In this document: in pieces, positions 3,732 to 18,690 of the stretch
How the letters are laid out: each line of letters starts with the position of its first letter
Numbering within the stretch: position 1 is the first letter of the stretch
From: a virus
DNA: 24,412 nucleotides
IMG/VR virus record: IMGVR_UViG_3300042691_019888
Span: 1-24,412 of that record
Strand: one strand, 5' to 3'
The notes under the pieces: generated by a model
The model's database searches: none
Told to the model about the DNA's origin: nothing
What the model saw: the letters and a program-made list of their open reading frames with translations, nothing else
Translations under genes and position numbers: made by a program

Positions 3732-4052
3732 GTGCCAGCCGCTCTTTCTTCGACCGGGATCACGTTCTCTGGCAGCACCTACGCCTGCGCCAGCGTCACC
3801 GTCCGCGACTCTGCCGAGCAGTTGGACGTCACGACTCTCACCGACACCCAGAAGCAGTACCAGAACTCGCCGCTGAAGAACGGCTCGGAAGCGACGCTGG
3901 AGTTCATGGGGTACGGACCTCGGGCAGGAGCAACTGGAGCGTTCTCGGCTCCGGGCGTCTCCGGCCTCGGAGCGACCGTGACATCGTCGAGCGTGACGTT
4001 CGCCGTCAACAACATCATCCGGTCGCAGGCGACTGTTCAGTTTTCTCGGTAA
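3732..4052 (+). CDS. Putative tail-tube paralogue 2 (106 aa)
   Basis: Starts with GTG at 3732, supported by AAGGAG at 3718-3723. Layout: S-S-T-G-I-T-F-S-G-S, the strand A-S-V-T-V-R, then S-A-E-Q-L-D-V-T-T-L-T-D, a short helix region around K-Q-Y-Q-N-S-P-L-K-N-G, the strand A-T-L-E-F-M-G-Y-G, a Gly/Ala loop, and terminal strands V-T-S-S-S-V-T-F-A and A-T-V-Q-F-S-R. The E-x-x-D-V-T and G-x-x-x-T-L/V-E-F elements resemble gpV-like tube folds. They also align by eye with the next gene (V-T-V-E-F-N-S-Y-G). No other product is suggested. Likely a tail-tube or tube-like protein; which of the three is the major subunit cannot be decided here. Confidence 0.52.
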   Translation: MPAALSSTGITFSGSTYACASVTVRDSAEQLDVTTLTDTQKQYQNSPLKNGSEATLEFMGYGPRAGATGAFSAPGVSGLGATVTSSSVTFAVNNIIRSQATVQFSR

Positions 4053-4071: not shown

Positions 4072-4428
4072 ATGGCACAGATAGCGCAGGGGGCGCGTTT
4101 CTCGTTCCCTGGAGTCTCTGGAGTGCCGACTCGCGTAACCGTCGAGTCGCAGACTCCAGAGATCGTCAACATGACAAGGCCGTCGGACGCTGCGAACAAA
4201 TGCGTCCTCGTCCCGTCCGGCGTCAAGACCGGAGGGTCGGTAACGGTCGAGTTCAACTCATACGGCGAGACGACAGCGAGCGTGGGGACGGTCGGTCAAC
4301 TCCATTTCATTGCCCCAGGGCTGACTGTCTCCCGGCAAGTCATCCTTGAGTCTGTGTCGGTGTCAGCACAGACCGGCGACGTCGTCAAGGGAACGGCGAA
4401 GTTTTTATTTACTGACTACTACAAATAG
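4072..4428 (+). CDS. Putative tail-tube paralogue 3 (118 aa)
   Basis: Third tube-like protein. It opens Q-G-A-R-F-S-F-P-G, then T-R-V-T-V-E-S, then P-E-I-V-N-M-T-R-P-S-D. It continues G-G-S-V-T-V-E-F-N-S-Y-G in the centre and closes with V-S-V-S-A-Q-T-G-D-V-V-K-G-T-A-K-F-L-F. The strand-helix-strand order and the V-T-V-E-F / Y-G element match the product encoded at 3732. The D-V-V-K-G-T-A-K-F terminal strand is the sort of edge strand seen in tube proteins. No good Shine-Dalgarno sequence precedes ATG 4072; the short spacer (4053-4071) instead holds a direct repeat of GGCTAAC. The next gene, the assembly chaperone, starts 7 bp after the stop, which is the usual position of the major tail protein gene, so this copy may be the main tube subunit. 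Confidence 0.55.
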   Translation: MAQIAQGARFSFPGVSGVPTRVTVESQTPEIVNMTRPSDAANKCVLVPSGVKTGGSVTVEFNSYGETTASVGTVGQLHFIAPGLTVSRQVILESVSVSAQTGDVVKGTAKFLFTDYYK

Positions 4429-4435
4429 GTGTTTC

Positions 4436-4807
4436 ATGGCTCTCAATAAGGCTGCGATTCTCGCCGCCGGTGACTACAAGTTGGAGAAGATTCACGTTCC
4501 CGAGTGGGGCGGCGACGTCTACGCAAAGACGATCAGCGGCATCGAGCGAGATCGCTTCGAGGAGGGGTATTCGGAGCAGAAGATGAAGAACTTCCGCGGC
4601 CGGTTCCTCGTCCTCTGCCTCTGCGACGAGAAGGGGGAGCGTTTGTTCACCGACGCCGAGGTCGATGAGATCAGCAAGAAGTCGAGCGTCGTCCTGAATC
4701 GCCTTTTCGAGAAGGCGTGGTCGCTGAATGCGTTCACGAATGAGGCGATCGACGAACTGGGAAACGATTCGACCGTCGCCCCGAGCGGCGGTTCTACTTC
4801 CGTCTAG
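4436..4807 (+). CDS. Tail assembly chaperone, zero-frame product (lambda gpG-like)
   Basis: A 123-aa protein expected to coat the tape measure during tail assembly and then leave the virion. ATG at 4436 lies 7 bp past the previous stop. The sequence starts A-L-N-K-A-A-I-L-A-A-G-D and has W-G-G-D-V-Y-A-K-T-I-S-G around residues 23-34. A helical region R-D-R-F-E-E-G and the strand G-R-F-L-V-L-C-L-C-D follow. It then runs G-E-R-L-F-T-D-A-E-V-D-E and L-N-R-L-F-E-K-A-W-S-L-N. This resembles gpG/TAC proteins, including the central hydrophobic strand followed by an acidic helix. The last 13 zero-frame codons after the slippery site encode a low-complexity Ser/Gly tail. Directly upstream of the tape measure, and carrying a -1 slippery site at 4759, it has the classic G/GT arrangement. 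Confidence 0.85.
   Translation: MALNKAAILAAGDYKLEKIHVPEWGGDVYAKTISGIERDRFEEGYSEQKMKNFRGRFLVLCLCDEKGERLFTDAEVDEISKKSSVVLNRLFEKAWSLNAFTNEAIDELGNDSTVAPSGGSTSV
4759..4792 (+). promoter_or_regulatory. -1 programmed ribosomal frameshift element (slippery heptamer plus hairpin)
   Basis: The heptamer GGGAAAC occupies 4759-4765 and is phased as G|GGA|AAC in the zero frame of the chaperone gene. That is exactly the X-XXY-YYZ arrangement for tandem -1 slippage; lambda uses the near-identical GGGAAAG at its G-T junction. After a 6-base spacer there is a hairpin. Bases 4772-4779 pair with 4785-4792 (eight pairs, one of them G-U), with a five-base loop at 4780-4784. An extra G-U pair at 4771/4793 is possible. 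Spacer and stem are in the normal range for stimulatory structures. The -1 frame continues into a gpT-like domain. The efficiency cannot be judged from sequence. Confidence 0.9.
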
Positions 4808-5073
4808 CGCTGGCACTCGGGAAGACGGTCAAGCAACTCCTACAAGAGATCGACAGCGAGGAGTTGAGCGAGTGGTTTGCCTACGACCAGCGATGGCCGT
4901 TGCCTGATCACTGGCAGCAAACAGCAAGGTTGTGCCGGATCGTGATGGCATCGTCCGGCAACTACAAGAAGCACGACATTCCAGATGAGTCTGCTTTCAT
5001 CCCTACTGCCAGACGTCCCGTGCAGGGCGAGCAGGAGATGATCGCGGAGTTCAAGAAGTTGCAGGGGCTCTGA
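4765..5073 (+). CDS. gpT-like extension of tail assembly chaperone, reached by -1 frameshift
   Basis: C-terminal half of the long chaperone (gpGT-like). It is translated by ribosomes that slip one base back at 4759-4765. The first codon after the slip is 4765-4767 and the frame runs to TGA at 5071-5073, adding 102 residues to the first 110, a 212-aa fusion in total. The -1 frame is closed by TGA at 4741, upstream of the slip site, so entry has to occur between 4741 and the zero-frame stop. The extension reads R-F-Y-F-R-L-A-L-A-L-G-K-T-V-K-Q-L-L, then E-E-L-S-E-W-F-A-Y-D-Q-R-W-P, and later M-I-A-E-F-K-K-L. The W/F-x-A-Y element is typical of gpT-like domains, which bind tape measure and tube subunits. 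A separate short gene starting within 4864-5073 is less likely, because obvious domain sequence lies before its first possible start. Confidence 0.85.
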   Translation, partial: RFDRRPERRFYFRLALALGKTVKQLLQEIDSEELSEWFAYDQRWPLPDHWQQTARLCRIVMASSGNYKKHDIPDESAFIPTARRPVQGEQEMIAEFKKLQGL

Positions 5074-5074
5074 C

Positions 5075-8000
5075 GTGGGCAACGGCTACCTCGGCAAAAT
5101 CTCCGCGATCGTCTCGGCCAACACCGGCGACTTCAAGCCGAAGTTGGATGCGGCGGCGAAGGACGTAACGTCTTTCGCGAAGTCGATGCAATCGACCCTG
5201 GCGTCTGCCTCGTCAGCATCGTCTGCCTCACTCAGGGCCATCTACACCGAAGCGCAGAAGTTCGACCGCGCCCTGGCGGCGGCGACGAGCCGCAAGTTGT
5301 CCTTCAAGGGATTCGACGCGGCCGACCTCGGCGCTGCCGCCGACAGGATGCGGCAACTCTATTCCGCAACCAATCAAGTCTCAAAACCGCTCGCCGACGC
5401 CGCCAAGACTTTTGGCAAACTCTCCTACGAAGTCCAGGGCGAGTTCCTTCCGGCGCTGATTTCGGCCCAGAAGGCGACAGAGGCGCTGGCATCCACGATC
5501 AGCCGCACCGGGCAAGTCGGCGAGGAGCGATTTGGTCGGGTGCAACAGAAGGTTGCAGCGGTCATAGCGTCGATGTCTCGGATCAGGGAAGCGGACGCCC
5601 TCGCCGGCGGCCTCGCCACCGGGCGGGAACTCGCCTTTCAGCAACCCGGCTTGGTTGCCGAGATGCAGCGGTCGCGAGCGCTCCAGGCAAAAGCGCTGGC
5701 ACTTAGCCCCGAAGTCCTCGCAGGATCGCAGATCACGGGTCTTGTGGGTCAGCAAAAGGCCGCCGCAGCCGAGACAGTTCGCCTGCATTCCGCACTTGAG
5801 AAAGTGAGGAACTCAAGAAACGGCGACGCAGTGGCCGCAGAGGCCGCGCTTAACAAACAACTTGCACTCTACTCGCAGATCAACGCTCAGATTGAGCAAC
5901 AGATTGCAAACATTGAGCAGGCCGCCGCCGCTCGGGCGAGAGACGCCGAGATCGAGCAGAACACCGGCGCATCGTCGAGGCGAATGACGCCAGTCGCAGA
6001 CCTCCTGCGGATGAGGGCAGAGGACGCGCGCAAGGCGAGGGACGCCGAAATCGAGAAGAACATCGGCGCATCGTCGAGGCGAATGACGCCAGTCGCAGAC
6101 CTCCTACGGATGAGGGCAGAGGACGAGCGCAAGGCGAGGGATGCCGAGATCGAGAAGAACATCGGCGCATCGTCGAGGCGAATGACGCCAGTCGCAGACC
6201 TCCTGCGGATCAGGGCCGAGGACGAGGAGAGGCGTGCCCTCCAGGGGAATCCGACGGGAGTGTTCGGCCCCCAACTCACTGAAGACATGAAGAGGGCCAG
6301 GGCCGAGGCAAAGGCGCTGGACGAGACGATGTCGTCGCTGCGAGCCAAGTCAAACTTCATCATCTCTGGAGACGTTCAGAACGTAAAGCAGGCAGAGGCA
6401 GAGGTTTCAAGGCTGATTGATCTAGTCGTGCAACTAAAGACGGAGCAGAGAAAGCAGGCTGCTCCACTCATTGATAACGCTGTTGCCTCCCTTGCGACCG
6501 GCGATGTCGGAAAGATGCAGGCGAGCATTGCGAAACTTCGCGGCGGGCTCGTTGGAATGGGCGTGAGAGGGACCGGCGATATAGGCCGCGGCGGGTTCGA
6601 CAAGTTTACGCTGGCCGCGCAACAGGCAGCGTTCGCTGTCGACGACTTCTTCTCAGTCACAGGAGATATGTCGCAGCGGATCAGGGCGGTCGGAAACAAC
6701 ATCACGCAGTTGGGCTTCGTTCTAGGCAATACAACCGGCCTCGTTCTAGCGCTCGCCGCCTCGCTTGGCGCGCAAGGCGTCGCGGCCTACCTGAAATATG
6801 CAAACGGCGGCCGGACGGCCGAGATGTCTGCCAAGTCTTTGAACGAGGCTCTCGCGAAGCAGAAGTCACTTGTCGACGAGTTGCGACAAGCCTTTGGCTC
6901 GCTCGCTTCGTCAATTGGCGAAAGCGTATTCTCTGGCGCGAAGGCAGGACTGTTCGAGTTCGCGGAGCAACTCAAGGCCGTTCGCAAGGAAGCCGAGAAG
7001 GCGAGAAATGAGTCAGCCTCCGCAACGGACCCGAGGATGCTTGGAATCGCGGATCGCGAAAAATCGATCAGCGAGCGGGTGGAGGGTGAGGCAAATCCCG
7101 GAAGGGCCGCTGGCCTTCGCGAGGGGCTTCGCGATCTTGATGCCGCGAAGATTCGCGTTCGGCGGCAAGTCGACGGAATGCAAACCCCGAGCAAGGACGA
7201 ACTCCTAAATCTGCTCGGGCGTTCCGTCTCGGCCTTTGATGAACAGGTTGCACTGGAGGCCGGATCGCCATTCCGCAACAGGAGGGTGGTAACTCAGAGA
7301 ACACTCCTAAACGACGCCATTCGAGAGTCGGCAAACGCGGCCGGCGGAAACTCTTTTGACGCCGTTCTTCAGCGACGCGAAACAGTGTCGTCTCAACTGA
7401 AGTCGATGTCGCTTGTGTCGCCTCGCGGCGACTATGGCTTGTCCACAAGATTTGATGTCTCGGGCCAACTCGAAGGGTTTAGGCAGCAAATCGAACTCTT
7501 GGACCGCGCGCTTGCCACCTTAAACGACGAGTCGTTTTTCAGGATTGCAGAAAGTGCAAAGAAAGCAAGTGACAAGTTAGATCAAAGTCAAGAGTCGCTG
7601 AACTCGCTTGCCGAAGGTGGTTTTGCCGGCGCTCGCGAGTTGCAGAACGAACTAAACGCGATCGGCGCGCGGCTGCGATCCGCGAGAGAGCAGTTGATTG
7701 ACGCCACGAAGATCGAGGACGCCGGAAAACGCAAGGCCGCACAAGACGAAGCCGAGCGGGCCGTTGCCGCCATCGGAAAGGAGATCGAGGAGCGGTCGAA
7801 GTCGGCGGCGGCACTCGCTTCGGCGTCAAGAAGCATCGACGCTTTCGCCGGCGCTTTGGAGAGAGCAGGCGGAAAACTGATCTCCGACGTCATTGGCGAG
7901 GTAAACGCCGATGCCGCCAAGGCTAGGCGAGACGCGAACGCGGCAGAGGCTGCGGCCGGGGCTGGCGGCGGCCCAGTGGCTCGTGCCGAAGCAGACGCGA

Positions 8001-8770
8001 TGCAGCGCCGGCGAGATCGGGTGCAGGAGAACGAGAGGATTGCTCAAGGCAGGGGCGAGGAACTCGCGAGGCAGCGAGAAGCGATCAAGGCCCGGTTCGA
8101 GGCCGACGCGAGAGGCGGCAGGCTGGACAAAGAATCACAAGACCTAATCAGGAGAAGAGACGAGGCTCAGTCGCAGATTGACAAGGCGAAGGCCGAGGGA
8201 GTGTCGCCGCCGGCGGACGCTGAACGAAGGGCGGCTGACGCACAGCGGGGACTCGACCGCATTTTTGACAAGTCGCCTGCCGCGGAGGCCGCTCGCAAGC
8301 AGGCCGATGAGTTTGATCGAGAGGTGACGGCGAAGAGACAGCGGGAGGAGTTGATAGCAAGGGGCCGCGAACTTGCGGTGACTCCGGCTCAAAAGGCCGG
8401 AGCCGAACTTGCCGGCAACCTCAGAGCACTCGGCGAGGCGTTTAAGGACAGCCCTGCCGCTGACAGGGGGATGTTCGAGGCCCGCACAAGACAACTTACC
8501 GACGATGCCATGCGGCAAACGGCTCCCGCTATTGCTCAACTTGCCGGGTCGGTGAAGGCATCAGTGGCGATGGGTCCGTCCCGAGCCGCCCTCCAGGCAT
8601 CCGATGCGACGACGTCTCAAGGGGCCGCCGAACTCAACCGACTAATCCGCGGCGACGACTCGGCGAAGAGTCAAGACCTCGCTGAACTACAGAGGCAGTC
8701 GAGCCTTCTTCAGCAACTCATTCAAGCGGTCAACGCAAACGGCGGCTCGCCGCCGGTCCTAAACCTGTAA
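5075..8770 (+). CDS. Tail tape measure protein (1231 aa)
   Basis: Sets tail length and is threaded through the tube, probably released with DNA at infection. GTG at 5075, one base after the chaperone stop, is preceded by CAGGGGC. The product is overwhelmingly helical, Ala/Glu/Lys/Arg-rich with long coiled-coil stretches, as tape measures are. It starts G-K-I-S-A-I-V-S-A-N-T-G-D-F, a common tape-measure opening followed by K-P-K-L-D. Residues 288-386 are three near-identical 33-residue repeats. One strongly hydrophobic segment lies at about 546-566 (L-G-F-V-L-G, then L-V-L-A-L-A-A-S-L), the expected membrane-interacting part. The C-terminal third is rich in charged helices with A-x-R-D/E and A-E-A runs. 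It ends L-L-Q-Q-L-I-Q-A-V-N-A-N-G. No lysozyme or peptidase motif is evident. The position right after the chaperone is diagnostic. Confidence 0.93.
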   Translation: MGNGYLGKISAIVSANTGDFKPKLDAAAKDVTSFAKSMQSTLASASSASSASLRAIYTEAQKFDRALAAATSRKLSFKGFDAADLGAAADRMRQLYSATNQVSKPLADAAKTFGKLSYEVQGEFLPALISAQKATEALASTISRTGQVGEERFGRVQQKVAAVIASMSRIREADALAGGLATGRELAFQQPGLVAEMQRSRALQAKALALSPEVLAGSQITGLVGQQKAAAAETVRLHSALEKVRNSRNGDAVAAEAALNKQLALYSQINAQIEQQIANIEQAAAARARDAEIEQNTGASSRRMTPVADLLRMRAEDARKARDAEIEKNIGASSRRMTPVADLLRMRAEDERKARDAEIEKNIGASSRRMTPVADLLRIRAEDEERRALQGNPTGVFGPQLTEDMKRARAEAKALDETMSSLRAKSNFIISGDVQNVKQAEAEVSRLIDLVVQLKTEQRKQAAPLIDNAVASLATGDVGKMQASIAKLRGGLVGMGVRGTGDIGRGGFDKFTLAAQQAAFAVDDFFSVTGDMSQRIRAVGNNITQLGFVLGNTTGLVLALAASLGAQGVAAYLKYANGGRTAEMSAKSLNEALAKQKSLVDELRQAFGSLASSIGESVFSGAKAGLFEFAEQLKAVRKEAEKARNESASATDPRMLGIADREKSISERVEGEANPGRAAGLREGLRDLDAAKIRVRRQVDGMQTPSKDELLNLLGRSVSAFDEQVALEAGSPFRNRRVVTQRTLLNDAIRESANAAGGNSFDAVLQRRETVSSQLKSMSLVSPRGDYGLSTRFDVSGQLEGFRQQIELLDRALATLNDESFFRIAESAKKASDKLDQSQESLNSLAEGGFAGARELQNELNAIGARLRSAREQLIDATKIEDAGKRKAAQDEAERAVAAIGKEIEERSKSAAALASASRSIDAFAGALERAGGKLISDVIGEVNADAAKARRDANAAEAAAGAGGGPVARAEADAMQRRRDRVQENERIAQGRGEELARQREAIKARFEADARGGRLDKESQDLIRRRDEAQSQIDKAKAEGVSPPADAERRAADAQRGLDRIFDKSPAAEAARKQADEFDREVTAKRQREELIARGRELAVTPAQKAGAELAGNLRALGEAFKDSPAADRGMFEARTRQLTDDAMRQTAPAIAQLAGSVKASVAMGPSRAALQASDATTSQGAAELNRLIRGDDSAKSQDLAELQRQSSLLQQLIQAVNANGGSPPVLNL
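5936..6232 (+). repeat. Three tandem 99-bp repeats inside the tape measure gene
   Basis: In-frame direct repeats at 5936-6034, 6035-6133 and 6134-6232. Each encodes 33 residues beginning A-R-D-A-E-I-E, with a shared core G-A-S-S-R-R-M-T-P-V-A-D-L-L-R and R-A-E-D. By my count units 1 and 2 differ at only six bases. Unit 3 is close to unit 2 until its last ~9 bases, where it diverges. A block of about 40 bases in the middle is identical in all three. The high DNA identity points to recent duplication by recombination or slippage. Each unit would lengthen the tail by roughly 5 nm under the ~0.15 nm/residue rule. Confidence 0.92.
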
Positions 8771-10638: not shown

Positions 10639-13600
10639 ATGTCATTCTGGGCCTTTTGCTGCAAGTTTCCGCAGGTCTATCGACCTTGGTTTAATGCGGA
10701 GCAGTACCCAAACGAGGAAGCAAGTTCCGCCGGCGGATATGGGTTCCCTCAGATCGAAGGCTGCGGAAGCCACGCGGTCGACAATCAAGGGAACTGGAAG
10801 TGCCTGTCGGACTTTGCAGGAGTTCAGACCGACGGAACGCTATGGTGCTGGATTAGGCACATCGCCGTCTTGCGTAACTTCCGAGAGACGGGAGAAGTGA
10901 AAGACGTGTATTCGCCCTTTCCCAAGCAGCGAGACAGGCCGTGGAAGATAAGCGACGACACGGACTGGGAGTGGGTGACATCAGACTCCACGAGGGGGTT
11001 CGCGATAAAGACCGACGGCACGCTGTGGGCCTTCGGCATAAATAATATGGGAAGCCTTGGGATTGGGCTGCACAAGACGTCGTACCAGTCGAGCAACGTG
11101 TACGGCGGGTATAGGGCAAAACTCTCCTGCGGAATCAAGGCTGTTCACCCCAACCCTGCGACGACGTCCACCCAGAAGCCTACCGTATCCATCTCGTCGA
11201 CCGTGGTGGAAGACCTTGCGGGCGTTCAGCCGCCAACGCTAAACGCAAAGTGGACCGCCAGAGCCGTGAGCGTGGCGCTTACCTCGGGCGGGAGCGGCTA
11301 TACGTCCGCTCCATCAGTGAGAATGATCGGTAGCGGCGCTGACCAGGGGCTATCGCTCAACGCCTCGTCGGTCGTAATGACGAACTCCTACATCCAGGGC
11401 ATCAACGTCGACTCGGCCGGGACCGGATACACATACGCCTCACTGACAATACCAGTGATTTCGGCGTCGGCATACGCGACGGTCGAGGACGGGGAAATCG
11501 TTGGATGGACAATATCAAACCAGGGAGCCTCGTTCGGACTCTTCACCGAAGAGCAGATGAAGGTCATCGTCTTAGGGGACGGAGAAGGCGCGTCCGTCTC
11601 TTTGACGATCGGCAAGCGAAGCGTTTCATCCATTCAGTTTCCAGAGACGAAGATGTGGACTGAGTTGCCCACAATAGAGTTCTCCGGCGGCGGCGGCTCC
11701 GGCGCTTCGGCGACCGTGGGCAGTCTCCTCGGAACAGTCGACAGCGTCGAGGTTTTGTCTCCAGGCAGTGGATACACGCAGCGACAGCAGGTCTTCAGTT
11801 TCGATGGCGGCGTGCTCAAGGCGATGTTTACGGCCGACGGGCAAACCGTCGAGGGGGGGACGGTCGAACTCCTGCCGGGGAAGGTCGTGTCCATCGAGGC
11901 AGTGGACGCAACTGTTCCTCTGTCAAAATATTCCACTGGCAGAGTGTTCCCTTTCAGTTGTTACGCTACGCCTCACTACGGACTCCATCCAGAGAGGCAG
12001 TTGCTGGCGGCGACACTAAAGTCGCCAACCGCAGACGATGTTTCGCTGTCCATTGAGCAGACCAATAGTGGCAACCTGTTGTTGTCAAATGATGAAACAA
12101 TGGACGGATACGCATATCCGCCGTTTTTGGTGGAGTCATTTGGCTGCGTTCCAAACACTGACGACTACGCGATAACATCAATCAGGTCATCCCAACCCAC
12201 GCCGTGCGAACCGTATGGCGATATACGGCTTTGGAGCGCGCCGTCCATCAACTATCAGTGGCCTGTCTCTGACTCGATTGAGACGCTGGAGATCAGCGGG
12301 GAAGGAGGCAGCACCTCCGAGTACACAAACATTGACGGTCACCTTCTGCTCACGAGCCAGACATGGGGCGACCTGGGAACTTTCGCCGACAGCAGTCAGT
12401 TTCCTGCTTACGAAGACCTCGGCGAAGAAACGCTACCGCTCTACACGGGCGAGTTGTGGAGAAGAACAACAAACATAACCAACATACCGACGTTGTCTTT
12501 TGAACTAAACGAGTTTTGGAGGACGCCAACAATCAGCGAGGTTGTGACCATTCACTTTCAACCTCCAACGCACGGGGGGCAGCCGCCGTCGGCTCACGCC
12601 GACCCGGTCGGCGAGGATGACCTGATCGGCTACGGAACGCAGCCGGTCCTTGATTCTGATGGAAACGGCCTGTATCAGACTGAGCCACTGTTGCTTTGCA
12701 CGTCGCAGATGTTTGACAAACCTGTTCAAGTCGGGTCAGACACATGGATGTCCGCTTCCATAAAGGGTGACCTGTCGCTTGGTGTCAATTCTGAAGGTAA
12801 ACTATACTGGTGGGGCTCGCCGGCTGCCAACGGAAGCAACCTCCCGTGCGTTTCGCCGTCGCCGATTGGCAGGGGCGCGACGCTGCAAGTGAACTCCGAG
12901 GGAGACGAGGTTCCGAACCAAGGGCTTTACGGCGGGCTTAATTACTACTACACAGATGAAGCGGGGTTAAGTCGTGGCCGCATAAGTTTCTCAATTCCAG
13001 ACCATGGAATTTACAATAACCCAGAGCACATTGCGTGGCCGATTGTTGACTACGATTCAAATGCCGCGTGGATCGGCTCTGTCCCGAAAAGCGAGGGTGG
13101 GGGGCATTACACGACATACTTCCCTCCCGACCCTGACGGAATGCACAAGCGCGGATGGGCGGCCGGAGGACTTGGATACATTGACACCCCGACCGTCTGG
13201 TCAGCGCAGATTGGCGGGAGCGTCGTAACCTTTACGCCGCGGCTTTTTGGGCCAGACGAATTCACCGAGGTTCGCGAGGACTGCGCCAGAGGCTCGAACG
13301 GGGCATGGTACGCCGCCCCTGGCGCGACGAGGATGTCTACCCCAGGCGTTCCGCACATCGTCGCGCCGGGACAGTTGTGGAACTACACGACAACGGCTGT
13401 CACGAAATACTATGAGTCGCCGCAAGATCAGCCTGCCACGACTACCGTCCGCGAATCCGCCGGAAAGGCGTACCGGGCAGCGCTGTACATTACAGCCGGA
13501 GGTTCCGGCTACACAGAAGCCAACGTCAGCGTGACTTCAACCCCCTTGCCTTCGCCATCGTCATCGCAAACGTATACGGTCACTGCGACTACGACGTGTC

Positions 13601-16557
13601 CAGATAACAGTGAGTTGCCAACGGAAGGGACTTACGTCACTGTTAGGGAGTACACGCAAGGCGAGAGCGACACCACCCTATCGTCGCCTCTTGATATATT
13701 TGCCGGAACTGTCAAGCAGGCGATAGTCGATCCAAGTTACGCGATATCGTACACGGGAAGCACGGCATACACGGCATCGGTGGTCGGCGACGGTGGTGAC
13801 GCCGCCGTATTCGCCAAGGTCTTTGATTCCATGTACGAAAGCCATCTCGCCCAACTTACGCCGCCGGGGGTAAGTGGCTACTCGCAAAATAGCGGCATCG
13901 GCATAGTAGACGGCGAACTTGTTGCCTTCCCTTACGCGCCCACCTCGAACAGTCTCCTAATTCAAACAGAAGACTATAGCGCAGCCGGATACAGTCTCCC
14001 GAACACGCAAGGCGTCAATAAGTCGGAGGGGGCAACAGTCAGAAAGACTGACGGCAGCATTTGGAGAGTCAATAACGCAAGAGACGTAGAGTTCGCCTCT
14101 GCGTACAGAGTCTTCCCGTTTGAGTTGACGATCAGTAACACAGGGTCCGGCTACGGCGACACGGCAACGGCAGTAGTCGCCCAGCCCTCCGGCGTCGCCC
14201 AAGCCCGCGCCATCTTCAACGGAAAGATAGCGGCGATCGGAGCCGTTTCGGGCGGAAGCGGTTACACGTCGCCGCCTGCACTCACCATCACCGCGGCGCA
14301 AGGAACGGCAGGCACCGCGCAGGCGGTCATCGCAGGGCCTCTCGGGAGAGTGAACGTGACGTCGCAGGGCTCTGGCTACCGAGTGCCGCCAAAGGTCAAG
14401 TTCACCGGAGCGGGGATTCACGCCACGGCGACGTGCCATATAAATCAGGCAGGCGGCGTGCAGTCGGTGACCGTTACCGATGGAGGCCGCTACAGAAACG
14501 TAGCGCCGACCGTGTCATTCGAGCCGGTCGTAGAGGTCGAGACGCTGACACTGACTGATGGCGGTGAAGGGTACACCCAGACGCCGAAGGTGTTCATTGG
14601 CGGTGGTGGTGGTGTCGGCGCTACGGCTGAATGCACGATCCTGGCAGAGGTCGACTCGATCGCAGTGCTTTCTGGTGGTTCAGGCTACACGTCACCCCCC
14701 AGCGTTTCAATTATTGGTGGAGAAGGTTCTGGCGCTCTCGCAACTGCAACGATTCAGGGTGGGGTCGTTACGGCTGTATCCGTAACCAACTCAGGCAGCG
14801 GCTATAGGTCGCAGCCGAGTGTCGTGCTTTCTGGGGGCGGCGGAAGCGGGGCCGCGGCAGAGGCTCGAATCTCGGGCCATGTCGATAGCCTCACTCTGCT
14901 AACGAGGGGCGAGGGATTCGTCAACACGCCCGCGGTCGTTTTTCACGACGGTGGGGGAGACGGCGCGGCGGCGTCGGTCACAATCGGCAGTGTTGGCAGC
15001 GGCGCGGCGGCGACGGCGCTCATAAACGGGTCTGTCATTTTCTGCACGCACTCTGGTTCTGAGTGGCTCCAAGGTGAGCCGGTTGTCACCGTGTCGGAAA
15101 GCCCGTCAACGAACTACCTGATCAAAGACCTGAATGATGCACTTAGCAGGGGTGACATCACGCAGGAGCAGCGGGACGCAGGCGTGAAGAGTGTTTCCGC
15201 AAGGCTGAAGGCACGAATGATCGGCAACATCACTGAACTTGAGGTCTTGAACGGCGGCGGGGATTACGTTGAGTCGTGGGTTCTGTCTTCACTGCCGCCA
15301 CTCGCAAACAAGAAGTATCCTGCGGTTGCCGAGGTTTCACGGGTGCTGGCTGACCCCTCGACATACTACGAATCGCTAGGCCAGCCAAGGTTGTTTTATC
15401 CAGTCGGCGAAGTGGATGAAAGCGGAGAGGTAACGTCTCTGGCAATGCCAAGTGGCCTCGCGGACGTAGAGTTTTGGGGTTTGCCGTGGGTTCGGATGGT
15501 GGATGGACTGTCGGCTGACCCTTACACTTGCCTAACGCTCGTCAGTTCAGCCGTCCGAAGTGCGGATACGATTTCGGCTGGTGTGAGTTGGGAGTCTCAA
15601 GGCAGCAGCGTCGGGCCTTCGTACAACGGCATTCGAGTCTTAGTGACCGAGACAGCCTCCGCACGGCATAGTCGCATACCAACGGCAATCAGCCTTTGCG
15701 GCGAACTGTCTCAGTTCAACTCAGCCGGCATTACGCTCACCCTGCAATACGATCCGCTGCCGTCGCTTGAAATACAGGACGAATGCGGCACTGGGGCCGT
15801 GGCCGCGGTAACGGCTAGTGGTGCGTGGCAGATTTCTATCTCTGATGGCGGCAGCGGGTACACATTCGCGGCGAGGCCGGTGCTTACAGGAGGAACGCCC
15901 ATTGCTTGGGGGAGCCCCGCGGCCGCGACGGCGGCGGTCACCAACGGATCGGTGTCGTCTGTCAGCGTGACCGACTCTGGAAACGGCTACACGGAGCCCC
16001 CTACAGTTATGTTCGTCGGCGGGGGTGGAAGCGGCGCAGAGGCCGTCGCGATCATGGCGAACTACAGCGTCGCCGGGATACTGATCACTAGCGCCGGGCG
16101 TGGATACACGTCCGCGCCCGAGGTGGTGATCATCGACAAGGAGCGTCGGTTTCAGGACTCGACATTAGGGAAGTCGTGGCAATCTTATGTAAACAAAAAC
16201 GCCAGCCCGAGTTTAATCAACTACAAGGTCGAATACTGTTTTGGCATCGAGCGACAGCAACTCACGCTACAGTCGCCGATTGGCCTGATCGGAGATTCGC
16301 ACGGCGCGAAGTTTGTGCCGCTCTTCGATGACGATGGGTACATTGAGGCTATCGAATGGAGTGCGACCACGCTGCTTGCGTCCTACTACTACCTCGAATA
16401 TGCGGAAAAGCGGCCGGGCTACTTCTACACATCACTCGACAACCTGTCGCCTCCAGTAGTCACCCCTTCAGGCCGAATGACAACCCCGGCCGTCTTCAGC
16501 GTGGACACCGTCTCGTTTGACTCCATTTTCTCGGAGAACTCGATCAAGCGACTGTGA
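10639..16557 (+). CDS. Giant tail-tip/fibre protein with RCC1-like blades and GSGYT repeats (1972 aa)
   Basis: The largest gene here, at the position of the central tail-tip or receptor-contacting protein. The N-terminus (M-S-F-W-A-F-C-C-K-F) is followed by two RCC1-like blade motifs: V-Q-T-D-G-T-L-W-C-W near residue 67 and I-K-T-D-G-T-L-W-A-F-G near 128. Further look-alikes occur around residues 710-730 (N-S-E-G-K-L-Y-W-W-G) and 1130-1145 (K-T-D-G-S-I-W). About fifteen repeats of the form V-x-x-G-G-S-G-Y-T-x-x-P-x-V occur. They cluster at residues ~1161-1464 and ~1730-1832, with scattered copies near 215-390 and 955. Each repeat predicts two or three beta strands with a Gly/Ala-rich turn (G-G-G-G-S-G-A). 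ATG 10639 follows the previous stop directly. No catalytic motif is visible. The role in host contact is inferred from size, position and repeats. Confidence 0.75.
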   Translation: MSFWAFCCKFPQVYRPWFNAEQYPNEEASSAGGYGFPQIEGCGSHAVDNQGNWKCLSDFAGVQTDGTLWCWIRHIAVLRNFRETGEVKDVYSPFPKQRDRPWKISDDTDWEWVTSDSTRGFAIKTDGTLWAFGINNMGSLGIGLHKTSYQSSNVYGGYRAKLSCGIKAVHPNPATTSTQKPTVSISSTVVEDLAGVQPPTLNAKWTARAVSVALTSGGSGYTSAPSVRMIGSGADQGLSLNASSVVMTNSYIQGINVDSAGTGYTYASLTIPVISASAYATVEDGEIVGWTISNQGASFGLFTEEQMKVIVLGDGEGASVSLTIGKRSVSSIQFPETKMWTELPTIEFSGGGGSGASATVGSLLGTVDSVEVLSPGSGYTQRQQVFSFDGGVLKAMFTADGQTVEGGTVELLPGKVVSIEAVDATVPLSKYSTGRVFPFSCYATPHYGLHPERQLLAATLKSPTADDVSLSIEQTNSGNLLLSNDETMDGYAYPPFLVESFGCVPNTDDYAITSIRSSQPTPCEPYGDIRLWSAPSINYQWPVSDSIETLEISGEGGSTSEYTNIDGHLLLTSQTWGDLGTFADSSQFPAYEDLGEETLPLYTGELWRRTTNITNIPTLSFELNEFWRTPTISEVVTIHFQPPTHGGQPPSAHADPVGEDDLIGYGTQPVLDSDGNGLYQTEPLLLCTSQMFDKPVQVGSDTWMSASIKGDLSLGVNSEGKLYWWGSPAANGSNLPCVSPSPIGRGATLQVNSEGDEVPNQGLYGGLNYYYTDEAGLSRGRISFSIPDHGIYNNPEHIAWPIVDYDSNAAWIGSVPKSEGGGHYTTYFPPDPDGMHKRGWAAGGLGYIDTPTVWSAQIGGSVVTFTPRLFGPDEFTEVREDCARGSNGAWYAAPGATRMSTPGVPHIVAPGQLWNYTTTAVTKYYESPQDQPATTTVRESAGKAYRAALYITAGGSGYTEANVSVTSTPLPSPSSSQTYTVTATTTCPDNSELPTEGTYVTVREYTQGESDTTLSSPLDIFAGTVKQAIVDPSYAISYTGSTAYTASVVGDGGDAAVFAKVFDSMYESHLAQLTPPGVSGYSQNSGIGIVDGELVAFPYAPTSNSLLIQTEDYSAAGYSLPNTQGVNKSEGATVRKTDGSIWRVNNARDVEFASAYRVFPFELTISNTGSGYGDTATAVVAQPSGVAQARAIFNGKIAAIGAVSGGSGYTSPPALTITAAQGTAGTAQAVIAGPLGRVNVTSQGSGYRVPPKVKFTGAGIHATATCHINQAGGVQSVTVTDGGRYRNVAPTVSFEPVVEVETLTLTDGGEGYTQTPKVFIGGGGGVGATAECTILAEVDSIAVLSGGSGYTSPPSVSIIGGEGSGALATATIQGGVVTAVSVTNSGSGYRSQPSVVLSGGGGSGAAAEARISGHVDSLTLLTRGEGFVNTPAVVFHDGGGDGAAASVTIGSVGSGAAATALINGSVIFCTHSGSEWLQGEPVVTVSESPSTNYLIKDLNDALSRGDITQEQRDAGVKSVSARLKARMIGNITELEVLNGGGDYVESWVLSSLPPLANKKYPAVAEVSRVLADPSTYYESLGQPRLFYPVGEVDESGEVTSLAMPSGLADVEFWGLPWVRMVDGLSADPYTCLTLVSSAVRSADTISAGVSWESQGSSVGPSYNGIRVLVTETASARHSRIPTAISLCGELSQFNSAGITLTLQYDPLPSLEIQDECGTGAVAAVTASGAWQISISDGGSGYTFAARPVLTGGTPIAWGSPAAATAAVTNGSVSSVSVTDSGNGYTEPPTVMFVGGGGSGAEAVAIMANYSVAGILITSAGRGYTSAPEVVIIDKERRFQDSTLGKSWQSYVNKNASPSLINYKVEYCFGIERQQLTLQSPIGLIGDSHGAKFVPLFDDDGYIEAIEWSATTLLASYYYLEYAEKRPGYFYTSLDNLSPPVVTPSGRMTTPAVFSVDTVSFDSIFSENSIKRL
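14119..15030 (+). repeat. Main cluster of GSGYT-type protein repeats in the giant fibre gene
   Basis: About eight degenerate repeats of roughly 35-45 codons. Each contains a glycine-rich signature before Y or F: S-N-T-G-S-G-Y, S-G-G-S-G-Y-T-S-P-P, S-Q-G-S-G-Y-R-V-P-P, D-G-G-R-Y-R-N-V-A-P, D-G-G-E-G-Y-T-Q-T-P, a second S-G-G-S-G-Y-T-S-P-P, N-S-G-S-G-Y-R-S-Q-P and R-G-E-G-F-V-N-T-P. Several are followed by G-G-G-G-x-G-A. A smaller cluster of three lies at about 15826-16134, and isolated copies lie near 11281, 11410, 11759 and 13495. The DNA identity is modest, so these are protein-level repeats rather than a recent tandem array. Confidence 0.85.
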
Positions 16558-16961: not shown

Positions 16962-17192
16962 GTGGCCGCCGCGGCGTCAAGGAGTCGAGACGCTCGATAC
17001 ACAACGTGGCTCGATCGCCTGGACTGCGAAGTTCGAGATGAAGTCATTGCCGTCCGCGATGCCTACCGGGCCGGCGAACTGGACGTTAAGGCGAGGACGC
17101 TCGCGTCCGCGATCCTCGAAGACCTCAAGCAGAATCGTGACCTCACCCCGTGCAGCCTCCACACGATGAACCAATGGCTCCTCCACGGCTAA
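16962..17192 (+). CDS. Small helical hypothetical protein (76 aa)
   Basis: I use the GTG at 16962, just after the previous stop. The open frame reaches back to 16857, but that part overlaps the HExxH gene and is Pro/Ser/Arg-rich as expected of a shadow frame. The product reads S-R-D-A-R-Y-T-T-W-L-D-R-L, then R-D-E-V-I-A-V-R-D-A-Y-R-A-G-E-L, K-A-R-T-L-A-S-A-I-L-E-D-L, and ends L-H-T-M-N-Q-W-L-L-H-G. This is an all-helical layout that could end in a helix-turn-helix (S-L-H-T-M-N-Q-W-L). No strong ribosome-binding site is seen, so the start is uncertain. Function unknown; a DNA-binding accessory role is only a guess. It overlaps the metallophosphoesterase start by about 19 bases. Confidence 0.5.
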   Translation: MAAAASRSRDARYTTWLDRLDCEVRDEVIAVRDAYRAGELDVKARTLASAILEDLKQNRDLTPCSLHTMNQWLLHG

Positions 17193-18196
17193 AAGACAGA
17201 GTGGTCGCCGTCACGGCCGACGCAGAGGCAAGCCGCCTCCGCGGCGAACTGACCGCCTTGCGTAAGAAGTACGAGGTGGCCCTCGGTCAACTCGACCGTG
17301 AGAAGCAGGCCCGCGAGAACCTGACCGCCCTGGCCGGCGTCAAGTCGAAGAAGATCAGCCGTGCCAAGCCCGCCGGCAAGCGACCGGAGGCCACGGCTAT
17401 CCTCGTCTGCTCTGATTGGCACGTCGAGGAGCGAGTCGATCCTGCCACCAACGTGCCTGGGAACGAGTACACGCTCGACATCGCCGACCGCCGCATCAAG
17501 CAACTGGTGCAGCGGGCGTCGATGCTCATCGAGCACGAGAAGTCGCTGACCAACATTCGCCGCGTCGTCGTGGCCGCGTTGGGGGACATGATCACGGGCC
17601 AGATTCACGACGACCTCGTCGAGATGACCCAACTGGCTCCGCTGGCCGCCACTCGCTGGGCCCAGGCCCGGCTCGGCGGCGTGATTGACGCGATGTCGGA
17701 GATCGCTCCCGTCGTCGTCGCAACGAGCAGCGGCAACCACGGTCGAACGACACACAAGCCCAGGATCGCCACCGAGAACGAGCATTCGTTCGAGCAGCAT
17801 ATGTACCTGACAATGGCCGCCGCAGAGAAGCGTCCGAACGTCTCGTGGCAGATCGGCCATGGCTACCTGAACGTCGTCGACCTCGACGGTTTCGCAGTTC
17901 GCTTTCATCACGGTCACGCCATTCGGTTCGGCGGGGGCGTCGGGGGTCTGACCATCCCGACCAACAAGGCGATCGCCAACTGGAATATCTCTCGGCGCGT
18001 TTCGCTCGACGTCTTCGGTCATTGGCACACTTTCTGTTGGCTTCCCTACCGCTTCGTTGCCAACGGTTCACTCATCGGCCACAACGCCTTCGCCGACCGC
18101 ATCAAGGCCGAGTTCCAGCCCCCGTCTCAGTCGCTGATCATCGTCGATCACGACCATGACAGAGTGACCAAAGTCCTCCCGGTGTTCGTCTCGTGA
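17174..18196 (+). CDS. Calcineurin-like metallophosphoesterase (340 aa)
   Basis: Metal-dependent phosphoesterase of the calcineurin superfamily, acting on phosphodiesters or nucleotides. All motif blocks are present, counting from ATG 17174: D81-W-H83 (C-S-D-W-H), G137-D138 (A-A-L-G-D), G187-N188-H189 (T-S-S-G-N-H-G-R), H246-G-H248 (F-H-H-G-H), and G282-H-W-H285 at the end. A charged helical N-terminal segment (about 15-55) looks like a coiled coil. A Lys/Arg-rich stretch, K-S-K-K-I-S-R-A-K-P, precedes the catalytic domain. GTG at 17150 is an alternative start adding eight residues, but both starts overlap the upstream gene. The stop overlaps the deaminase start (GTGA at 18193-18196). Whether it cuts DNA or nucleotides is unknown. 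Confidence 0.88.
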   Translation: MAPPRLKDRVVAVTADAEASRLRGELTALRKKYEVALGQLDREKQARENLTALAGVKSKKISRAKPAGKRPEATAILVCSDWHVEERVDPATNVPGNEYTLDIADRRIKQLVQRASMLIEHEKSLTNIRRVVVAALGDMITGQIHDDLVEMTQLAPLAATRWAQARLGGVIDAMSEIAPVVVATSSGNHGRTTHKPRIATENEHSFEQHMYLTMAAAEKRPNVSWQIGHGYLNVVDLDGFAVRFHHGHAIRFGGGVGGLTIPTNKAIANWNISRRVSLDVFGHWHTFCWLPYRFVANGSLIGHNAFADRIKAEFQPPSQSLIIVDHDHDRVTKVLPVFVS

Positions 18197-18690
18197 TTGA
18201 ACGCCCGATGACAGAGGTCGACATCCTCCGGCTCGCGGCCCGCGAGGCGACGAGGCACTCAAGCGACACCCAAACCCAGAACGGGGCCGCGGTGGCGAGG
18301 CTCAACGACCTCGTCTTCACTGCCGCCAATGCCTTCCCGGCCGGCGTCGAGCGGCGGCATCACCGGCTCGGGCGGCCCGAGAAGTACACGTTCATCGAGC
18401 ACGCCGAGCGGAACGTCATCTACAAGGCCGCGTCGGTCGGCTGGGCCACCGGCGGTGCGACGATGTACTGCCTCTGGTTCGCCTGCCCCGACTGCGCCAG
18501 GGCGATCATCCAGGCCGGCATCTACGAGGTCGTCGGCCACGTCAAGCCTCGGAACGCCACACCGTCCAGATGGCTCCAGGCCGTCAGGGACGGCGAGACG
18601 ATGCTGCGGGAGGCCGGGGTCGGGATGCGGTGGCTCACCGACGACCTCGGGGTAACGATTCGATTCGATGGAAAGGAGATGCGACTGTGA
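18193..18690 (+). CDS. dCMP deaminase-like cytidine/deoxycytidylate deaminase (165 aa)
   Basis: Zinc-dependent deaminase, most likely making dUMP from dCMP to feed dTMP synthesis. Key residues from GTG 18193: D-T-Q-T-Q-N-G-A near 25-32, catalytic H70-A71-E72 (I-E-H-A-E-R-N-V-I), and the second zinc pair C98-P-D-C101 in W-F-A-C-P-D-C-A-R. The usual P-C-x-x-C is A-C-x-x-C here (Ala for the proline), which is a small departure. A-I-I-Q-A-G-I-Y-E-V-V-G fits the helix-strand after the zinc site. ATG 18208 (after I-E-R-P) is an alternative start. It overlaps the metallophosphoesterase stop and the kinase start (GTGA at 18687-18690). Position beside a dNMP kinase supports a nucleotide-supply role. 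Confidence 0.85.
   Translation: MIERPMTEVDILRLAAREATRHSSDTQTQNGAAVARLNDLVFTAANAFPAGVERRHHRLGRPEKYTFIEHAERNVIYKAASVGWATGGATMYCLWFACPDCARAIIQAGIYEVVGHVKPRNATPSRWLQAVRDGETMLREAGVGMRWLTDDLGVTIRFDGKEMRL

Follow-up and report, generated by a model that had tools for sequence, protein, structure and literature searches.

The window analysed here is a 24,412-nucleotide stretch of viral DNA (IMG/VR record IMGVR_UViG_3300042691_019888) in which two reading frames overlap in a −1 relation between the genes for a probable major tail protein and a tape measure protein; all features of this locus lie on the plus strand. The zero frame (4436–4807) runs from ATG 4436 to TAG 4805–4807 and encodes a gpG-like tail assembly chaperone of 123 aa, with which homologues align from residue 1. 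The second frame is shut by TGA 4741–4743, opens 18 nt before a G_GGA_AAC heptamer at 4759–4765 and continues to TGA 5071–5073; its post-shift part (4765–5073, 102 aa) encodes a gpT-like domain, so that a fusion of the two is predicted to comprise 212 aa. A single base (5074) separates the T stop from GTG 5075, where a gene for a 1231-aa protein begins (5075–8770), assigned as the tape measure gene by its position directly after G/T and by its length. Searches of PHROG and Pfam gave no significant match to its product, in which a unit of about 33 residues (DAEIEKNIGASSRRMTPVADLLRMRAEDERKAR) is repeated almost in tandem. On the other side, the probable major tail (tube) protein (3732–4052) is weakly identified (phrog_158, E 0.0026; Phage_TTP_11, E 8e-4, below its cut-off), and a small open reading frame (4072–4428) lies between its gene and G.

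Elsewhere in the window, a single open reading frame of 1972 aa (10639–16557) has no Pfam match, and many profiles of phage virion structural and baseplate proteins find matches in its C-terminal third (phrog_701, E 1.7e-66). An exonuclease-like frame (phrog_284, E 1e-38) and a dCMP deaminase-like frame (phrog_174, E 1.5e-23) sit inside the structural gene region at 17150–18690, positions 9–686 show weak similarity to glycosyltransferase family 2, just under the Pfam cut-off (24.6 versus 27), and an Rfam scan of the window returned no match. The one MAG contig found when genome contigs were scanned for a host (Planctomycetaceae, 14,043 bp) was set aside as a clue; it is probably a binned phage contig, being as long as the viral contig L037.

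In profile searches, the G half matches phrog_344 (tail assembly chaperone, E 2.4e-27) and the T half phrog_337 (tail protein, E 1.1e-11). Set against the Pfam chaperone and gpT families, a comparison proposed in the first-pass annotation of this DNA, the two halves fare differently: T lies just above the cut-off of Phage_tail_T (PF06223; 26.2 and 26.3 bits versus 25.9), a family that 23 of 23 aligned relatives also match (E ≤ 0.01), whereas G stays under the gathering score of Phage_TAC_1 (PF06222; 19.6–20.2 bits versus 25). The identification of G as a chaperone rests on phrog_344 and on annotated relatives. The named ones among the relatives of G (29–46% identity) are genes of Rhodococcus, Streptomyces and Thermobifida phages, the majority carrying a tail assembly chaperone annotation; no named phage close to the window turned up. 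Searching the PDB with a profile of the G alignment gave chance-level matches only.

The codons at the junction read CTG|GGA|AAC, which places G_GGA_AAC in slippery phase. GGGAAAC is expected by chance in this window (two occurrences seen versus 3.3 expected), so we dropped its rarity as evidence and rely instead on position, phase and conservation. Protein searches of viral contigs, together with two Rhodococcus phages, yielded 149 loci with both halves, 102 of them non-redundant, and in every one of the 102 T lies in the −1 frame relative to G. GGGAAAC, GGGAAAA or GGGGGAA stands in phase at the junction in 99 of these loci, the remaining three being Jflix2 (GGGTTTC), L151 (AAAAAAC) and REQ1 (none). 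Elsewhere in frame, these G genes offer 10,332 positions, of which none carries any of the three forms and nine carry a strict X_XXY_YYZ of any kind. On a protein tree containing only loci that bear one of the three forms, the heptamer type switched at least seven times, each time to another of the three. GGGAAAC itself is also found in phages Dubu, phiSASD1, Yara and phiRKBJ001. Judged by sequence comparison, this is a genuine slippery site, and some 100 relatives conserve it strongly.

Four distant named relatives, REQ1, Madraxi, Shagrat and P1312 (L002, L158, L157 and L159), have no strict heptamer, and separate T starts are annotated in them. Homologues of this kind had been named in the first-pass annotation as evidence against its reading; they exist, yet their overlapping −1 frames persist. 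A T_TTC step, read as TCT TTC or GAT TTC, is found 37 nt ahead of the stop codon of G in each of the four and is perhaps a degenerate slip site.

The substitution pattern among relatives shows where the coding frame changes. Across 59 sequences, mean pairwise differences at the three codon positions are 0.25/0.20/0.52 in the zero frame 5′ of the heptamer, and in the −1 frame 3′ of it 0.22/0.16/0.38 within the overlap and 0.33/0.11/0.64 just past it; the third-position substitutions move from one frame to the other at the heptamer, and hence so does the coding phase. This argues against the view that T is an independent gene, translated from an internal start of its own by coupled re-initiation at the stop codon of G or beyond it, with the heptamer merely incidental. 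T is annotated as a gene of its own in several distant relatives (REQ1 gp77, Yara 20, Shagrat 20), and possible starts can be pointed to, namely TTG 4864 in the window and an in-frame ATG at +63 in many relatives. However, TTG 4864, the sole start codon in the open −1 frame of the window, lies inside the conserved domain, and its use would remove about the first third of that domain, including RPERRFYF. The T protein is conserved from the first post-shift residue (R-F-x-x-RPERRFYF), yet in 62 of 99 loci the T frame lacks a start codon before +45, so an own start cannot explain the first T segment. A T-frame stop stands 9 nt before the heptamer in 27 of the 99, and nine loci, one of them a truncated contig, offer no T-frame start at all up to +140. 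We therefore consider a separate T gene very improbable, and we give even less credence to a change of frame produced by transcriptional slippage or sequencing error. A run of A or G could slip in principle, but the longest run here is 3 bases, which is too short for transcriptional slippage, and the −1 relation is not an error, since it is present in 102 distinct loci, named phages among them.

Most of what the first-pass annotation had read at this junction is borne out by these comparisons: the phase of the heptamer, a −1 frame that opens only after TGA 4741, a downstream domain lacking a convincing start of its own, and a fusion whose length we recomputed to the same figure. Its likening of the locus to lambda G/GT is strongly supported by the phrog_344 and Phage_tail_T matches, the gene order, and the conserved heptamer and −1 arrangement.

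The RNA downstream of the heptamer calls for a revision. Pairing of 4772–4779 with 4785–4792 had been described as a hairpin, and the site, spacer and stem together as unusually clean. The hairpin does fold, as 9 bp around a 5-nt loop when G4771–U4793 is included (4771–4793; −14.4 kcal/mol; z −2.3 to −3.0 versus dinucleotide shuffles), and the first 30 nt or so have no better fold. Folded over 72 nt, the RNA instead has as its minimum-free-energy structure another, longer stem (−33.6), which takes up the same 5′ arm. This interrupted stem of about 60 nt (4771–4830) pairs 4771–4777 with 4824–4830 and 4780–4785 with 4816–4821, plus inner pairs. Measured against codon shuffles that preserve the T protein in 58 loci, the RNA is not unusually stable over the first 40 nt downstream (mean z +0.34; window −1.5) but becomes so over 66 nt (mean z −1.71; window −4.28, with 0 of 200 shuffles as low), these means, like those that follow, overstating the independent evidence because the loci are related. 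A scan of G and T with 66-nt windows, each shifted by 12, gave the GGGAAAC/A group its minimum mean z (−2.17, n = 34) at +5 after the heptamer, where the long stem starts; for the GGGGGAA group the mean z was −0.82 at +5 (n = 23), with its minimum at +173 (−1.76). In 42 of 49 GGGAAAC/A and 12 of 25 GGGGGAA sequences, the best 70-nt fold links the two outer regions by a stem of at least 8 bp, and the short hairpin appears in none of the 49.

Among near relatives, the short hairpin is retained in L004 and L006 and lost in L007–L009, where the outer arms of the long stem are kept. It is restricted to a few close relatives, shows no detectable selection and is probably not the main stimulator; that it is the functional stimulator we think rather unlikely. 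Comparison of homologues has thus upheld the heptamer but not the hairpin, and the combination of site, spacer and stem is not unusual within these relatives. As to the long stem, its pairing partners vary between clades, RNAalifold found no consensus structure for 49 sequences, and fixed-register covariation, calculated for the short hairpin, the window's long stem and the long stem of L022, did not exceed that of shuffles, so the case for it is one of folding energy against a protein-preserving null and not of covariation. On these folding predictions, the stem of about 60 nt is the likeliest stimulator, and a probable one.

A weaker candidate lies upstream. A Shine–Dalgarno-like GAGG at 4742–4745, 13 nt 5′ of the heptamer (−17 to −14), is nearly invariant, third codon position included; two other Glu columns also attain 95%. 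Its sequence conservation is no more than suggestive of a role as frameshift stimulator. Shine–Dalgarno stimulators are known in the −1 frameshifting of dnaX and many IS elements (PMC5009743). A tentative reading, which we hold to be possible but doubtful, is that the family keeps GAGG, the heptamer and a stem of 45–60 nt about 5 nt downstream, with the existence and position of the stem under selection, its partners repeatedly rewired between clades, and the stem weaker on average at GGGGGAA. If it is true, these loci would form a natural series in which to study the trade-off between site and stimulator that holds the gpG:gpGT ratio fixed.

We conclude with high confidence, from the sequence comparisons described above, that the locus encodes a lambda G/GT-style programmed −1 frameshift giving gpG and gpGT. 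The majority of ribosomes would stop at TAG 4805 and release the 123-aa gpG, and we infer that a minority slip back by one base, re-pairing from GGA-AAC to GGG-AAA, to yield the gpGT fusion. The locus resembles that of phage lambda in its position before the tape measure gene, in its gpG-like and gpT-like (Phage_tail_T) halves, in a −1 shift at a heptamer of the G_GGA_AA type close to the 3′ end of G, and in the low-frequency fusion to be expected. It differs in that the heptamer ends in C, where that of lambda ends in G, in the high divergence of the proteins, and in the long downstream stem predicted here. Slippage would be stimulated by a stem starting 5–6 nt downstream, most plausibly the one of about 60 nt. 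As in lambda, gpG would then coat the tape measure protein and gpGT recruit the tail tube protein (PMC5009743).

Other phages provide closer or complementary parallels. Streptomyces phages Dubu and phiSASD1 have homologous G (38–41% identity) and T, GGGAAAC and an annotated joined gene, but their G stop, TGA, directly follows the heptamer, whereas the G of the window runs 13 codons further to TAG. GGGGGAA, one of the three forms among the window's relatives although the window itself has GGGAAAC, is known in actinobacteriophage tail assembly chaperone genes as the ‘fivetwo’ motif of PRFect, with about a thousand motifs in SEA-PHAGES data, and requires G:U re-pairing in the A site (PMC10885494). 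In Burkholderia phage KL1, a −1 shift at GGGAAAC with a possible downstream stem-loop has been predicted for gp18/gp19; unlike the arrangement described here, an intervening gene precedes its tape measure gene and the predicted site abuts TGA (PMC3483164).

The locus is an ordinary, well-conserved new example of the known lambda G/GT device and holds no surprise in that respect. It indicates that the usual frameshift of tail chaperone genes is employed by a family of environmental phages of which few relatives are in culture, and it supplies some 100 homologous sites, among which three heptamers stand in for one another. In all of these genomes, the T protein will come out of gene calling split or truncated if the frameshift is left unannotated.
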